A stretch of 64,000 bases of DNA from Paenibacillus sp. FSL R7-0273 (GTDB lineage Bacteria > Bacillota > Bacilli > Paenibacillales > Paenibacillaceae), in contig NZ_CP009283.1 of NCBI RefSeq assembly GCF_000758625.1, positions 4,723,501 to 4,787,500 on the forward strand, written 5' to 3'. Of the stretch, positions 13,101 through 37,044 are shown piece after piece. Positions within the stretch are counted from its first letter, which is position 1. Each line of letters opens with the position of its first letter. A model generated the notes under the pieces. The model saw only the letters and a list, made by a program, of their open reading frames with translations. It had not been told where the DNA came from and searched no databases. The position numbers and the translations under genes are program-made.

Positions 13101-15959
13101 TTATGAAATACCGCCTTCCAGCCATTCCTCGATTCTCGGAACCATCTGGTCGGTCAGCATATGCTCCATCTTGGGACCCGGCAGCGAATACAGGAAATAC
13201 TTCCCGTAATAAGACTCTATTACCCTGGTATCATATACAATGACAATTCCCCGATCCTGGGCGGTGCGAACCAGCCTGCCAAAGCCCTGCTTGAAGCGGA
13301 TAACCGCCTGCGGCACTGACAGCTTCATGAACGGATTCTTCTTCTGGGCCTGAAGCAGCTCCGACTTCGCTTCTGCAAGCGGATGGTTCGGCGGCTGGAA
13401 CGGCAGCCTGACTATCGCCAGGCAGGTCAGCGCATCTCCGGGAATATCCACACCCTCCCAGAAGCTGCTCGTGCCAAGCAGAACAGCTGCAGGGCTGTCC
13501 TGGAAGCGGCGGATCAGCTTGCTGCGGCTGCCCCCCTCCACTCCTTGTCCCAGCACTGCGATGTCTTCAGTAGCCAGCGCTTCCTTGAGCGGGTCGTAGA
13601 CCTGCCTCAGCATTTTGTAGGAGGTGAACAGCACCAGCATGCGCCCTTTGGTTGCCACTGCAGCCTCAGCAAGCGAGTGCACAAGCCGGTCAACAAACCT
13701 GGCATCGCCTACACTGCCCTTCACACTAGGAAAATCCCGAGGTATTACAAGCAGCGCCTGCTCGCGGTAATTAAACGGTGAAGGCAGCAGTGCGGTCATC
13801 AGCCTGTCCTGCTCTACAGCCTCTCCCAGGCCGAGATTATCTATCATGAACTGGAAGGATTTATCTACAGACAGGGTGGCCGAGGTCAGCGTTATACTCT
13901 TCTTCTTATCGAAGAACAGCTCTTTGAGCTGGGTGCTGACATCCACCGGAACAGCATACAGCTGCAGGGATTTACCGCGGTAGTTGCTACTGCCCTCCAT
14001 CCAGTACACAATATTCTCGTCATTCAGGCCCATGAAGAAGCGGATCTGCTCACGTATGGAGGCCAGGTCCTTAAACAGTCCGCCGATGTCAGTCACCAGA
14101 CTGTCCGAGGAGGACTGGCTGTCCGTATCGCGCATTTCGCTGAGCATCTTGTCGCCTCTGCGGATAATATCACTAAGGCTGAGATTCAGGGTGTTCTCCA
14201 GGGCCGCCAGCTCTTCCCAGTCCCTTGGCTTCTTGCCGGGATGCAGCCGCGACACCAGCTGTCCGGCTTCACCGGCAGCCGCATCGCTGCGGTCAGGCAG
14301 CAGTCCGAACAGCTTATCGCTGAGCACATCCCATGTCTCCTTAACGGTCAGCAGATCAGGATAGATCCGGTCAATGACACCGCTCCATTCAGAGGCCTGT
14401 TCGCTTCCTGAAGACTGCAGGGTCTGGCGCAGCGCCGGCAGCTGTCCGTTCCGGCTGTCCTTATACAGCCGTGTCAGGGTATGGGCTACCGTGAAATACT
14501 TCATCTGCATACCCAGATGCTTGCCCGCCACGTCCTCCAGATGATGGGCCTCATCTATGACAAGATGCTCATACGCGGGCAGCAGCTGATGTCCGGCCTT
14601 CACATCAGCAAACAGCTTGGAGTGATTCGTGATAACGACATCGGCAATGCCCGCTTCATGCTTGGCCCGGTGATAGTAGCATTTCCGGAACCAGGGGCAG
14701 GCTCTGCCAAGACAGGAATCCGTATCGCTGGCAACACTCTCCCAGAAATCGCCGCCCCGGCCGCTGAGGTTCAGCTCCTCATCGTCGCCGGACTGCGTCT
14801 GGGTGAGCCAGACCAGCATCTGAGCTGCCGTAAGCGATTCTTCCCTGGTGCTTACAAAGTCTTTATTGTTTATTTTATGTTCAAACTTGCGCAGACACAA
14901 ATAGTGCCCTCTTCCCTTAAAGACGGCAGCTTTGAATGCAAAGGGAACCACAGTAGTCAGCAGGGGGATGTCGCGCTCACGCAGCTGATCCTGCAGATTG
15001 ATAGTATGGGTGCTGACCATCACCTTCTGGTCTGTCCGCACACTATGGTAAATAGCCGGCAGCAGGTAGCCCAGCGATTTGCCGGTGCCGGTGCCCGCTT
15101 CAATCAGCAGATGCTTCTCCTCCTGAAGGGCTGTCTTTACTTCGCCAATCATAATCTCCTGTGCTTCCCGTGCTTCATACTGGGGTAAGGTATCCTTCAG
15201 CCTGGTCGTTACCTCGGCCATGTAATCCTCAAAGGATACATTCTCCAAAGGATTGCCGGAACCCTCCTCGCGCGGCGGAGCAAGCTCATTCCAGTCGCCG
15301 ACGGCCAGTGCCAGCTGACGGTGAAAGGTCAGCTCGCCCTCGGGCTGGAAGGTCTCCATCTCCCGTTCACGCAGCAGTCCGTCGAAATACCAGGCCAGAT
15401 CGCTGTCTTCACCAGCGAACAGCTCATTCAGCCGCTGAATGGTCAGCAGCGGCAGGCTGTACAGCTCGTCCAGACATTTAAGCAGTACAAGCGCTGTGGC
15501 CAGCGCATCACTGTCTGCCTGATGCGGCCGCTCATGCGTCAGTCCAAAATGTCCGCTGACAGCACCGAGCTGGTACGTGGACAGCGATGGAAAGCATATT
15601 TTGAGAAAATCAATCGTATCGAGAATTCTCCCCTGAAACGGCAGATAACCGCAGCGGTCCAGGGCATTCTGTAAAAAGTGAAAATCAAAAGCGACGTTAT
15701 GCCCTACAAGCACAACATCGTCCAGCAGCGGGACCAGCTCCATCATCATTTCGTCCAGCTCCGGCGCATCTGCAACATCTGCATCGGTAATGCCGGTCAA
15801 GCCTGTAATAAAAGGAGGAATCGGTGTTCCGGGCTTGACATAGGACCCATATACCCGGGAAACAGACCGGTCTTCTTCTATAATGGCAAGGCCAACCTGG
15901 ATGATCTCACCCACAGATTGGGTTCCCGTAGTTTCAAAATCAAGCACGGCAAATTTCAT
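13101..15959 (-). CDS. dinG: ATP-dependent helicase DinG with N-terminal 3'-5' exonuclease domain
   Basis: A 952-aa protein. Residues 1-165 form a DnaQ-type exonuclease with motifs DFETTG (7-12), HNVAFDFHFL (about 87-96) and HQADSDA (about 146-152). The helicase part follows, with Walker A AGTGTGKS (288-295), the DEAH box in VIDEAHHLEDV, and helicase motif VI near QGFGRLVR. The cysteines around SCLGRACPWFRKCYYH fit the XPD/DinG 4Fe-4S cluster position. B. subtilis DinG shares the exonuclease fusion. It probably acts on unusual DNA structures and R-loops. The start ATG has AAAGGGA upstream. Confidence 0.95.
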   Translation of the reverse strand: MKFAVLDFETTGTQSVGEIIQVGLAIIEEDRSVSRVYGSYVKPGTPIPPFITGLTGITDADVADAPELDEMMMELVPLLDDVVLVGHNVAFDFHFLQNALDRCGYLPFQGRILDTIDFLKICFPSLSTYQLGAVSGHFGLTHERPHQADSDALATALVLLKCLDELYSLPLLTIQRLNELFAGEDSDLAWYFDGLLREREMETFQPEGELTFHRQLALAVGDWNELAPPREEGSGNPLENVSFEDYMAEVTTRLKDTLPQYEAREAQEIMIGEVKTALQEEKHLLIEAGTGTGKSLGYLLPAIYHSVRTDQKVMVSTHTINLQDQLRERDIPLLTTVVPFAFKAAVFKGRGHYLCLRKFEHKINNKDFVSTREESLTAAQMLVWLTQTQSGDDEELNLSGRGGDFWESVASDTDSCLGRACPWFRKCYYHRAKHEAGIADVVITNHSKLFADVKAGHQLLPAYEHLVIDEAHHLEDVAGKHLGMQMKYFTVAHTLTRLYKDSRNGQLPALRQTLQSSGSEQASEWSGVIDRIYPDLLTVKETWDVLSDKLFGLLPDRSDAAAGEAGQLVSRLHPGKKPRDWEELAALENTLNLSLSDIIRRGDKMLSEMRDTDSQSSSDSLVTDIGGLFKDLASIREQIRFFMGLNDENIVYWMEGSSNYRGKSLQLYAVPVDVSTQLKELFFDKKKSITLTSATLSVDKSFQFMIDNLGLGEAVEQDRLMTALLPSPFNYREQALLVIPRDFPSVKGSVGDARFVDRLVHSLAEAAVATKGRMLVLFTSYKMLRQVYDPLKEALATEDIAVLGQGVEGGSRSKLIRRFQDSPAAVLLGTSSFWEGVDIPGDALTCLAIVRLPFQPPNHPLAEAKSELLQAQKKNPFMKLSVPQAVIRFKQGFGRLVRTAQDRGIVIVYDTRVIESYYGKYFLYSLPGPKMEHMLTDQMVPRIEEWLEGGIS

Positions 15960-34035: not shown

Positions 34036-34629
34036 TCATTGTCTTCTGTAACGGTTAAGGCGGGTCAGCAGAAAAATCGACAGCGCCACACCCAGCGTAG
34101 ATAATACCATCCAGTACTGCGGATGTGTCGGACCCATATTTACAACCAGCGGCTCAATAATCCCGCCTCCGGTTTCTGTGGCAGGATAAGAAGATGACCA
34201 CTCCAGCGAAAGTCCGGCTACACCGGTCTCAATAATACCGCTCTGTGCGGAGCTGGTATTCGCAGAGGTCTTGAACATGGTGAAATACAGGAAGCTTGAT
34301 AAAAACACAGCCAGAAAGCAGGCGATCCACAGGCTCAGCCGGCGGCGGAACACAGTTGTGCTGCCGGCAGACTTGCCGTCCCCGGGCATCAGCCAAGGGC
34401 TTTCCAGGTAAATCCGCTCCATAACCTTCTGATTGATAGCCTCGGCACGTTCCGTGCTGATCTCTATCCGTAAATCCTGCATAAGCTCGTTGCTCTCCTG
34501 CCATAATGCCCATTCGGCAGCACAATAAGAACAGCCGGCGATATGCCTTTCCAGCTCAATCCGCTTAGGGTCTGTGGGGGGAGCGTCCCACAACAGCGGA
34601 ATGAAATCCTGCGCTTCCCTGCATTTCAT
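34036..34629 (-). CDS. Zinc-finger anti-sigma factor
   Basis: A 197-aa protein with an N-terminal ZAS domain: Cys3, then His29, Cys33 and Cys36 in HIAGCSYC. A membrane segment lies at about residues 98-119, an outer loop of about 50 residues follows, and a second membrane segment lies near 172-191. It should hold the ECF sigma factor encoded just upstream at the membrane until a signal frees it. The start lies 5 bases after the sigma gene. Confidence 0.88.
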   Translation of the reverse strand: MKCREAQDFIPLLWDAPPTDPKRIELERHIAGCSYCAAEWALWQESNELMQDLRIEISTERAEAINQKVMERIYLESPWLMPGDGKSAGSTTVFRRRLSLWIACFLAVFLSSFLYFTMFKTSANTSSAQSGIIETGVAGLSLEWSSSYPATETGGGIIEPLVVNMGPTHPQYWMVLSTLGVALSIFLLTRLNRYRRQ

Positions 34630-34634
34630 AGGCC

Positions 34635-35222
34635 TTACACCCTCTCAGCCTGCTCTTCTGCCTCAGGCTCATAAAAGTAGGATTCGAGTTGGAGCTTCAC
34701 ACTGCTCCTTGCACGGAACAACAGTGATTTCACGGAGCTGACACTCTGATCCAAAATGACGGCAATTTCCTGATAATCCATCTGGTCATATTCACGCAGA
34801 ATCAGCGCCGAACGCTGCTTCTCCGGAAGATTGTTAATGGCTTCGCGGACCAGATTCATCCGTTCCTTGCGCAGTGCAGCCTGTTCAGGAGCTACCTCTG
34901 GCGGTGCTACAGGCGTGTATCCGCTCTCTTCCAGTGATACATTTCCCGCACGGTTCTTGCGCAGCTCACTTAGCACAGTGTTGCGGGCAATAGTATACAG
35001 CCATGTAGAGAAAGAGGCATCCACTTCACGGAAGGAATGCAGGCTCCGGAACGCCTTGTAAAAGGTCTCTGAGCAAAGATCCTCTGCGATCAGCTCCATA
35101 TGCGAATTTTTGAGCATATGATACACAAAAGCCAGTATCTTTCGTTGGTATCTTCGCATCAGTTCCGAGTATAGTTCTGTGTTACCTTGCTTAATTAACT
35201 GGATCAACTGGGAATCCGTCAT
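34635..35222 (-). CDS. ECF-type RNA polymerase sigma factor
   Basis: A 195-aa sigma-70 family protein with only regions 2 and 4. Region 2 has AEDLCSETFYKAFRSLHSF and DASFSTWLYTIARNTVLSEL; region 4 has NLPEKQRSALILREYDQMDY and a helix-turn-helix with SVSSVKSLLFRARSSVK. The start is ATG 35222, with GAGGAGG about 12 bases upstream. It is co-transcribed with its anti-sigma factor. The regulon is unknown; GCAACTTTTTT near 35305 may be part of a self-controlled promoter, which is a guess. Confidence 0.93.
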   Translation of the reverse strand: MTDSQLIQLIKQGNTELYSELMRRYQRKILAFVYHMLKNSHMELIAEDLCSETFYKAFRSLHSFREVDASFSTWLYTIARNTVLSELRKNRAGNVSLEESGYTPVAPPEVAPEQAALRKERMNLVREAINNLPEKQRSALILREYDQMDYQEIAVILDQSVSSVKSLLFRARSSVKLQLESYFYEPEAEEQAERV

Positions 35223-35622
35223 GGTGAGTTCGGCCCTCCTCGCCCTTGCACGTTTATCCCCGCCCGGTCCGTATGTATATACCGGCTTGGGGTAAAAAAG
35301 TTGCGGTGATTCCTCCAAATTTGCAATATCATAAGCATGAAATAAGTTCCCTCGTGGATAAGGCAGTACTTCCTATGTATATTCAGCATCCGGGCAAATA
35401 AGATATGCTGTATGTAAATACAGAAATAAAAACGCATATTCATAAATTTCCAATAATGAAGTCTATAAACATACTTAACCAAGTATAGCATACATTCTAT
35501 CAGGATGAAATTAGTAGACTTTTGTAAAGCTGTTCTCTACCTTTGTGCAGGAAAAAGTCGAAAGCCGTAAAACGCCCTCCCGGGCCGATAAAGACACTGG
35601 TAAAATTAGTTTAAAGAAAGTG

Positions 35623-35651
35623 TTGACAAAATGTAAACGGATACATATAAT
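35623..35651 (+). promoter_or_regulatory. Perfect consensus sigma-A promoter
   Basis: TTGACA at 35623-35628 and TATAAT at 35646-35651 are separated by exactly 17 bases, matching the housekeeping consensus at all 12 positions. No protein gene follows on this strand, so it appears to drive the small RNA. Confidence 0.92.
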
Positions 35652-35655
35652 AAAA

Positions 35656-35753
35656 GTACAGTATGGTTTCTCTCCACTCCTATCCAAACACTGTACGATT
35701 CCAATATCCATTGTGAATTGTAGCCGCTTACTTTGTAAGCGGTTCTTTTTTTT
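35656..35753 (+). ncRNA. Candidate orphan small regulatory RNA, about 98 nt
   Basis: Transcription from the consensus promoter would start near 35656-35658. Hairpin 1 has the arms GTACAGT (35656-35662) and ACTGTAC (35690-35696), with a second helix GTTT/AAAC inside, and a pyrimidine-rich loop CTCTCCACTCCTATCC. The loop is complementary to AGGAG-type ribosome binding sites. A short single-stranded linker is followed by the terminator hairpin (35722-35742) and eight T. No credible protein is encoded: an ATG at 35663 opens a 17-codon frame without a ribosome binding site. I do not recognise a known RNA family. Confidence 0.75.
35722..35753 (+). terminator. Terminator of the candidate small RNA
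   Basis: AGCCGCTTAC pairs with GTAAGCGGTT around TTT, then C and eight T. It lies about 70 bases after the consensus promoter start. Confidence 0.9.
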
Positions 35754-35844
35754 GTAAAAGTGCTGGCCCTCTTAAGGAATCGCCGCCTCCCGTTTCCCTC
35801 ATTATTAGTTATTTAGAGAATAAGCTTCTTCCCCGAGATAATCC

Positions 35845-35882
35845 AAAAAAAAGCGCATACCGGCTTGAACCGGTACGCGCCT
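35845..35882 (-). terminator. Intrinsic terminator at the end of the aro/trp supraoperon
   Basis: On the minus strand GCGCGTACCGG pairs with CCGGTATGCGC around a short loop and is followed by eight T. It lies about 70 bases after tyrA. In B. subtilis aroE (EPSP synthase) follows tyrA; here the operon ends. Confidence 0.9.
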
Positions 35883-35949
35883 CGCTTCTGCAAACAGCTT
35901 AATGTGTCAGCCGCTCAATTGGATGACTTGGCAGCCGCAGCACTGCCGT

Positions 35950-37044
35950 CTATACGTAGACCGTATAATCGTTATGCTGCAGAAGCACCTTGGCCCGCTC
36001 CATGTCATTTTCCTGGCGGAAAGACAGGCGCATAATCCCCGGTACATCCTCACGGCTTTCAATAATCTGTACATTGCTTAAGTTAATGCCCTGATCCCCA
36101 AGCTCGGTAGCGATGCGGCCGATAATCCCCGGATGGTCGGGAACATCGATATGCAGATCGAACAGCGGGGTAATCATTCCTTTGCGCCGTTCCGGCAGCT
36201 GGCTGCGGAACCCGTTCGCTTCGTGGAAGGCTGCCTCTATTCCGGTACCGTCCGAGTTCTCCAGCAACTGAATAAAGGAGGAGACCTCCTCGTTCCAATC
36301 CTTAAGCAGACGCAGCATGACGGAGCGGTTATTGAGCAGAATATCGCGCCAGATGATCGGATCGCTGGAGGCAATCCGGGTTATGTCACGGAATCCTCCG
36401 GCAGCCAGAGTACTGTACAGTGAATCCTCCGTATCATAAGCATGAACCTGGTTTACAAGAGCAACAGCGATAATATGCGGCAGGTGGCTGATAGCCCCGA
36501 CAATTTCATCATGACGTTCCGGTTCAAGCCGGACGATCTGTGCTCTCGTATGTAATAACAGTGATTTCAGCGCCTCATAGGCTTCCTCAGGCACTCCTGG
36601 CGGCGGAGTCAGCACATAGTAGGCATTCTCGAACAGCAGGGATGAAGCGGCCTCCACACCCGAACGCTCCGAGCCGGCCATCGGATGGCCGCCGATAAAA
36701 TGAACGCCTGGAATATCCAGGGATACCGCGCAGGCTGCGATGCTGGCTTTGGTGCTGCCGACATCGGTGATGATGCATCCCGGCTTAAGCGGAAGTCTGC
36801 TCAGCTGCTGCAGATACTCCTCCAGCATGCCCACGGGCACGCACAGGAAGATATAATCGGCGTCCAGCGCCGCTTCCTCAACAGAAAGCGTAGCCTGATC
36901 TACCACGCCCCTGCTGACATACTTAACCGCGGATTCAGGACGGTGGGCATGGCCGACAACGGTCAGGCCCTCCTTGCCTTTGAAGCAAAGGGCCAGTGAG
37001 CCTCCGATCAGACCGACACCGAAGATTGCTATTTTTGTCGTCAT
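35950..37044 (-). CDS. tyrA: Prephenate dehydrogenase
   Basis: A 364-aa enzyme that oxidises prephenate to 4-hydroxyphenylpyruvate for tyrosine. The N-terminal NAD domain has IFGVGLIGGSLALCF; the middle has HFIGGHPMAGSERSG and the helical domain; the C-terminal 80 residues form an ACT domain (LHIDVPDHPGIIGRIATELG), probably for feedback inhibition by tyrosine. It is the last gene of the supraoperon. Confidence 0.96.
   Translation of the reverse strand: MTTKIAIFGVGLIGGSLALCFKGKEGLTVVGHAHRPESAVKYVSRGVVDQATLSVEEAALDADYIFLCVPVGMLEEYLQQLSRLPLKPGCIITDVGSTKASIAACAVSLDIPGVHFIGGHPMAGSERSGVEAASSLLFENAYYVLTPPPGVPEEAYEALKSLLLHTRAQIVRLEPERHDEIVGAISHLPHIIAVALVNQVHAYDTEDSLYSTLAAGGFRDITRIASSDPIIWRDILLNNRSVMLRLLKDWNEEVSSFIQLLENSDGTGIEAAFHEANGFRSQLPERRKGMITPLFDLHIDVPDHPGIIGRIATELGDQGINLSNVQIIESREDVPGIMRLSFRQENDMERAKVLLQHNDYTVYV

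Follow-up and report, generated by a model that had tools for sequence, protein, structure and literature searches.

A tyrA-associated small RNA family of the class Bacilli, putatively under CcpA control and a possible counterpart of RoxS/RsaE

What is the role of a short stretch of Paenibacillus sp. FSL R7-0273 DNA that carries a flawless promoter and a strong terminator? The locus lies in a 64,000-nucleotide stretch of contig NZ_CP009283.1, here called the window, and all coordinates refer to it. An earlier note on this DNA had described an orphan small RNA gene of about 98 nt, with a perfect consensus promoter TTGACA-17-TATAAT, standing alone on its strand, outside the named families and next to an ECF sigma gene. 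Our reading, to which we give a probability of about two in three, is that the locus encodes a CcpA-controlled, C-rich trans-acting small RNA (sRNA) that acts in place of RoxS/RsaE.

The elements of the gene were recovered much as first described. The -35 hexamer TTGACA (35623..35628, + strand) and the -10 hexamer TATAAT (35646..35651, + strand), separated by 17 nt, match the consensus at 12 of 12 positions, which none of the five other promoter-like sites found by a 2.5-kb scan did. Within the order TTGACA is present in 58 and TATAAT exact in 47 of the 59 readable copies, own copy included and the N-masked L025 omitted. The strong terminator was likewise found, as an intrinsic terminator (35722..35753, + strand) with a 10-bp stem and a 3-nt loop (35722-35744) followed by T8. 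With the 5′ end inferred from the -10 hexamer and the 3′ end from the T-run, the predicted transcript is about 97 nt long (35657..35753, + strand), close to the length first proposed; it folds with a z-score of -5.46, and none of 200 shuffles folded equally well. One 70-codon GTG frame on this strand (35545-35757) spans promoter, RNA and terminator and was judged to be no gene, and an internal ATG frame is not conserved, in line with the claim that the strand holds no protein gene. With its own promoter, an intrinsic terminator and no conserved ORF, the locus has the features of a trans-acting sRNA, and as far as sequence can tell it is almost certainly an RNA gene.

No Rfam family was reached at the gathering threshold anywhere in the window, which supports the view of a stand-alone sRNA gene outside the named families. 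At E ≤ 5, eight sub-threshold matches were obtained between 35300 and 35960. A trpB motif over the sRNA (21.8 bits against a cut-off of 59, E 1.6) was taken as chance or a stem look-alike, as was a ctRNA_pGA1 match (29.7 bits against a cut-off of 45, E 7e-4) on the tyrA-side terminator, a strong terminator of 15 pairs (35850-35883, - strand) that faces the terminator of the sRNA. A text search of the open-access literature for the core and its complement returned irrelevant matches only, as judged by their listing, and no description of such an RNA was found there. RNA-seq of P. riograndensis gave 27 intergenic small RNAs, mostly lacking a function, and the accessible part of the main text of that paper mentions neither tyrA nor CcpA (PMC5670726).

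Comparison with other genomes contradicted the description of the gene as an orphan within the window's least conserved part. The 19-nt core was found exactly in 58 of 60 genomes of the order, and a 136-nt query matched all 60 (59 at E ≤ 6.2e-13), own genome included in both counts. Of the 23 order genomes that belong to other families, 22 showed 86-97% identity and the remaining one 77%; their main alignment stops at query position 63-75 and covers promoter, spacer and roughly the initial 30 nt of the RNA, a conservation far beyond chance. The 60 copies have a nearly constant 5′-TACAGTATGGTTTCTCTCCACTCCTATCC, followed by a small lineage-specific hairpin and a terminator of freely varying sequence. 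In the sample of the class Bacilli, a 21-nt pattern (≤2 mismatches) occurred in at least 189 of 398 genomes and 79 of 145 genera, which is a lower bound because the model R1 finds five more members (E 4e-7 to 0.009) among 74 genomes without a pattern match. These figures, like those for the order, rest on the matches listed, among which the reversed control pattern gave none in the 398 class genomes. Distant members carry UUUCUCUCCGCUCCUA, UUUCUCUUCGCUCCUA or UUUCUCUCUAUUCCUU in place of the core. In the phylum sample 9 of 398 genomes matched, seven of them from the window's own family, and outside the class there were two matches in 382, each with one mismatch and neither with promoter or terminator.

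A scan of 80 of 118 stretches among the matches listed, which yields names and no frequencies, contributed to a list of carriers that includes Paenibacillus, Cohnella, Saccharibacillus, Brevibacillus, Aneurinibacillus, Ammoniphilus, Alicyclobacillus, Melghirimyces, Thermoactinomyces, Fictibacillus, Pseudalkalibacillus, Halalkalibacter, Shouchella, Alteribacillus, Marinococcus, Caldalkalibacillus and Geomicrobium. A T-run lies 3′ of the core in 232 of 244 matches, a count that excludes target-site and duplicate loci (L002-L004, L064-L072, L139, L142-L172 and L291-L330), as do the upstream and downstream cre counts given below. The other 12 also have neither promoter nor terminator, none resembling the gene (five were inspected for these elements and seven come from non-Bacilli organisms by title); they are chance matches, one of them a candidate target site. 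Two copies in one genome, with differing flanks and terminators, were seen in the families f37 (L106/L107, L108/L109) and f32 (L117/L118, L119/L120). Phage and plasmid records contained no match to the sRNA, and such an origin was rejected; two IMG/VR contigs hold a 17-mer of the core, neither with promoter or terminator. The RNA thus forms a confirmed class-wide sRNA family, unnamed and more interesting than an orphan gene, and it is an autonomous gene of ancient inheritance within the class Bacilli.

The genomic setting is also conserved. In the window the sRNA lies between tyrA, encoding prephenate dehydrogenase (35950..37044, - strand; Pfam PDH_N, PDH_C and ACT), and the ECF sigma factor gene (34635..35318, - strand, given as the longest ORF, the true start being probably further in), whose Pfam domains Sigma70_r2 and Sigma70_r4_2 confirm the neighbour named earlier; a putative anti-sigma gene with a zf-HC2 domain adjoins it (34036..34629, - strand). 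An ECF sigma homologue was found near the sRNA in 129 of 243 loci and tyrA in 185, of which 155 are codirectional with tyrA upstream (107 with tyrA ≤250 nt from the core, 38 with 1-2 kb intervening) and 30, including the window's clade, convergent. Some of the 58 loci that gave no tyrA match are short stretches or chance hits in organisms unrelated to the carriers, and about half of the 58 show a sigma, hisC, Rieske or w32017 gene from the same block. The order tyrA - RNA - ECF sigma is retained in many loci with the sRNA in either orientation, and a FastTree phylogeny of 144 TyrA proteins gave at least seven changes of sRNA orientation beside tyrA. A fixed place combined with repeated turning round marks the sRNA as its own transcription unit, a stand-alone gene that ends the trp-hisC-tyrA block in the class Bacilli. 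In one genome (G004), two loci about 34 kb apart on the same contig (L040, 3114 onward, and L066, 2002) suggest an element inserted inside the sRNA core. This element encodes a serine recombinase of the large type, with the domains Resolvase, Recombinase and Zn_ribbon_recom, and what by eye resembles a LexA/CI-type repressor. It has CTCCACTCCTATCC at each end, the promoter-side end having a different 3′ half and its own terminator. It would thus seem that the element uses the sRNA gene for attachment.

Within the RNA, conservation is centred on a segment predicted to be single-stranded. The class-wide core UUUCUCUCCACUCCUA (35667..35682, + strand; 16 nt), common to nearly all copies compared, is the presumed seed and is complementary to ribosome-binding sites of the type AGGAGUGGAGAG. 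It lies in hairpin 1 (35658..35694, + strand), in which ACAGU/ACUGU and UGG/CCA are predicted to enclose the 17-nt loop UUUCUCUCCACUCCUAU; a second, lineage-specific hairpin is predicted at 35695..35721 (+ strand). The first hairpin of the earlier note is therefore predicted in the window's clade, but its ACAGU/ACUGU stem is lineage-specific and without a covarying pair, and in other clades UGG/CCA alone usually closes the loop. A class-wide stem 1 was rejected, RNAalifold giving three pairs with none covarying, and a contiguous stem of at least five pairs occurred in 38 of 170 unique segments compared to about 18 expected with shuffled arms. The core is predicted to be unpaired with a median probability of 0.82 (192 of the 216 predicted transcripts exceed 0.7), as is expected of the accessible, conserved seed of a trans-acting sRNA. 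The conserved feature is thus the loop sequence and not the stem. The promoter spacers of L122, L123 and L124, which lie upstream of the transcript, repeat part of the core's complement as GGAGTGGAG or AGTGGAGAG.

The promoter spacer holds a cre-like CcpA operator, ATGTAAACGGATACA (35631..35645, + strand), which abuts the -10 hexamer and has no mismatch to WTGNAANCGNWNNCA, which we take to be the cre consensus. The earlier note mentioned neither this site nor the synteny or the relation to RsaE/RoxS. Either the promoter or the terminator region carries a cre-like site (≤1 mismatch) in 200 of the 224 unique copies. In the 70 nt upstream of the core it occurs in 170 of 225 unique copies, compared to about 2.5 in mononucleotide shuffles, and downstream of the core in 54 copies, compared to about 3.6, palindromic terminators raising the chance of such matches there. 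Its position depends on the lineage: in the spacer in relatives of Paenibacillus, over the -35 hexamer in Alicyclobacillaceae, and inside the terminator in most Brevibacillus, in Fictibacillaceae and in many alkaliphiles. The 24 copies with no cre-like site in the promoter or terminator region include all those from the families f21 (three) and f58 (four) and from Thermoactinomycetaceae (two). Independent placement of the site across lineages points to real CcpA control and not to shared ancestry of one promoter, and on these sites the sRNA gene is very probably under CcpA control.

The best candidate target in the own genome is a PTS lactose/cellobiose EIIA gene, located 3′ of a PRD regulator and 5′ of EIIB, in which a 19-nt perfect complement, AGGAGUGGAGAGAAACCAU, covers the Shine-Dalgarno sequence (SD) and the ATG; the computed duplex energy is -36.9 kcal/mol. 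This site is one of two in the genome, besides the sRNA gene, with ≤3 mismatches over 19 nt. One other genome (G282) holds the full 19-nt site, and the orthologues in G001 and G027 (93 and 87% identical) keep GGAGTGGAGA / GGAGUGGAGA with altered flanks. The complementary site is thus kept in four genomes, and complementary sites show no enrichment class-wide. EIIA is an accessory gene, with a homologue (E 1e-15) in 5 of the 60 order genomes when the own one is counted, and therefore cannot account for the class-wide invariance of the core. Distant EIIA homologues of the genus (L343-L346, 42-54% identical) have ribosome-binding sites without a complementary stretch, and any control by the sRNA would thus be specific to one EIIA operon.

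Other targets were less clear. There were 59 AGGAGTGG...ATG sites in the own genome compared to 47 for a reversed control, with nothing clear beyond EIIA; 30 of the 59 were scored, the best at -27.6 kcal/mol. Within the 64-kb window the strongest score close to an ORF start, -28.5 kcal/mol, fell at 13541, where a 952-aa ORF has an internal GTG; all others were -23.5 kcal/mol or weaker. G012 and G018 each have a gene with an 18-nt complement on its SD, and in G012 that gene matches PMT_2 and YkcB_C. Genes recurring behind AGGAGTGGAGAG encode an acyl-CoA dehydrogenase (f21), an ABC ATPase (f32), a glutamate racemase (f16), a HesB-like protein and a nucleotidyltransferase (both in Paenibacillus), PTS EIIA and others, in a scan of 30 loci and 40 fetched stretches together with L002 and L142, covering part of the rows and with names given mostly by eye; recurrence inside one genus may reflect ancestry only. 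Class-wide, the real pattern lay on SDs in 87 of 398 genomes and a scrambled control (AGGAG retained, the following seven letters permuted) in 73 of 398; by hand count 11, probably 12, of the 87 match solely at the sRNA gene, leaving about 75 against 73 and no general excess. It follows that the targets are few, or are recognised in a way that the pattern missed. The idea that the pyrimidine-rich loop can pair with AGGAG-type sites is thus upheld by an accessible segment and one very strong match, EIIA, and finds no echo in a class-wide excess. Pairing with ribosome-binding sites is, in our judgement, somewhat more likely than not to be the main action of the sRNA.

The C-rich seed, which would pair with ribosome-binding sites, and the stand-alone gene of ~100-120 nt resemble RoxS/RsaE, as does the presumed regulation of central metabolism, the role described for RoxS in the accessible part of PMC8216469. 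The Rfam model of RsaE/RoxS (RF01820) gave no match at 35300-35960 (E ≤ 5) or over the own genome (E 0.01, stricter Infernal filters), and in 14 control genomes it matched B. subtilis only. None of the 53 sRNA carriers gave a hit to it, whereas 20 of the 27 genomes lacking the sRNA did, 14 of them exceeding the curated cut-off. The 80 genomes were hand-picked to cover families before the outcome was known; the carriers were chosen because they matched the pattern or gave a BLAST hit, with inspection of promoter and terminator in part of them, and the non-carriers all come from the 74 pattern-less genomes, none being among the five extra members of R1. Fisher's test of this split gives 2.5e-13 when related genomes are treated as independent, which is overstated because the genomes are related. 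Proteins from the 30-42 kb part of the window gave no tblastn match to 10 RsaE loci taken from the 20 genomes with a hit. Seed homology between the core UUUCUCUCCACUCC and the RoxS seed UUUCUCCCAUCCCC was rejected, the score being reached by 1038 of 5000 shuffles, and the core does not correspond to the RoxS seed with its UCCC motifs. With no model match, no shared neighbours at the 10 loci and a seed likeness that is often compositional, the sRNA and RoxS/RsaE are different genes, with different chromosomal places and complementary genome sets. They differ also in control, RoxS being under Rex according to excerpts of PMC8216469 and the sRNA of the window having cre-like sites.

Other known sRNAs share single traits with it. 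RsaI (RsaOG, RF01775) of S. aureus is described in the accessible part of PMC9266662 as CcpA-repressed and released on glucose loss, and as pairing with the SD of a sugar-uptake mRNA, similar to the action proposed here. It has G-rich tracts that are absent from the sRNA of the window, and is reported to be conserved in Staphylococcus and not in Bacilli (both from excerpts of PMC8216469); RF01775 gave no match in the own genome or in the 14 control genomes. RosA of B. subtilis is likewise given as a stand-alone, CcpA-repressed sRNA (PMC8216469, in part), but it is ~229 nt long, G-rich and a sponge of RoxS and FsrA, whereas the sRNA of the window is ~97 nt and C-rich. FsrA of B. subtilis, a C-rich trans-acting sRNA in the same excerpts (PMC8216469), differs in that the window has no Rfam match to it. 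RosA and RsaI belong to RoxS/RsaE lineages and carry G-rich tracts, as far as the accessible parts of PMC8216469 and PMC9266662 describe them; the predicted transcript here contains no GGG and hence no sponge tracts of the RsaI/RosA type. From the complementary distribution, and the presence of RosA and RsaI in RoxS/RsaE lineages, we read the sRNA as the counterpart of RoxS/RsaE with built-in CcpA control, a tentative reading that is nearly evenly balanced.

The alternative with most weight, unlikely in our view, is that the sRNA acts mainly on one conserved partner (a sponged sRNA, ribosomal RNA or an RNA-binding protein) and that mRNA pairing is secondary. The 16-29 near-invariant nucleotides exceed what many drifting mRNA targets would seem to need, complementary SD sites are in no excess, and the CcpA-repressed RosA and RsaI act partly as sponges of RoxS/RsaE in the accessible parts of three papers (PMC8216469, PMC9217828, PMC9266662). 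However, those two sponge via G-rich tracts that this transcript lacks, RoxS/RsaE was found in none of the 53 tested carriers, and the 19-nt EIIA match sits exactly over SD and start codon.

Other alternatives deny that there is a separate regulatory RNA. That the locus belongs to the trp-hisC-tyrA operon as a 3′ element acting in cis, as the proximity of tyrA at most loci might suggest, is very improbable in view of the sRNA's own near-consensus promoter, the repeated changes of orientation and the 38 codirectional loci in which 1-2 kb separate it from tyrA. It is slightly less credible still that the DNA is conserved as a site of regulation or recombination, with an incidental transcript: the serine-recombinase element in one genome speaks for it, but the core is entirely downstream of the promoter and the terminator stems, by eye, vary in sequence across lineages yet stay stems. 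Least credible is a small peptide, for which the window offers a 17-codon ORF beginning ATGGTTTCTCTCC (35663-35716). An ATG is present 5′ of the core in 185 of 232 copies but is missing in 47, and the frames run from 6 to 37 codons, 57 having no stop in the stretch examined; on this comparison the ORF was rejected. In addition, there is no downstream gene on the sRNA strand to attenuate, and the core has no visible third-position variation.

In the preferred reading of a CcpA-controlled trans-acting sRNA, CcpA would bind the cre-like site, which overlaps the promoter here and lies in the terminator in other lineages, and silence the gene as long as preferred sugars are available. On their exhaustion the sRNA would be made, and its unpaired UUUCUCUCCACUCCUA would pair with AGGAGUGGAGA-like ribosome-binding sites and so prevent a small number of carbon and energy genes, differing between lineages, from being translated, the cellobiose/lactose-type PTS EIIA gene being the best candidate in the own genome. 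The mechanism is probable and the target evidence weak. Its probable role is to adjust sugar and energy metabolism in those lineages from which the well-studied regulator RoxS/RsaE is missing. More speculative, and on balance doubtful as a whole, is the idea that Bacilli use one of two C-rich master sRNAs. The tyrA-anchored, CcpA-wired one would be ancestral in Paenibacillus, Brevibacillus, Alicyclobacillus, Thermoactinomycetaceae and alkaliphilic Bacillaceae; RoxS/RsaE would have replaced it at least once in the Bacillus-Staphylococcus lineages, the CcpA input being re-created via RosA and RsaI.

A family that is conserved in sequence and not in structure can escape Rfam 15 despite its presence in at least 189 of 398 class genomes. 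The complementary distribution with RoxS/RsaE makes the evolutionary replacement of global sRNA regulators testable. Paenibacillus, Brevibacillus and Alicyclobacillus are of agricultural and industrial use, and no central-metabolism sRNA was found described for them in the open-access literature. The RNA described here, almost invariant across the class, constant in its neighbours and with CcpA as its likely switch, offers a defined entry point.
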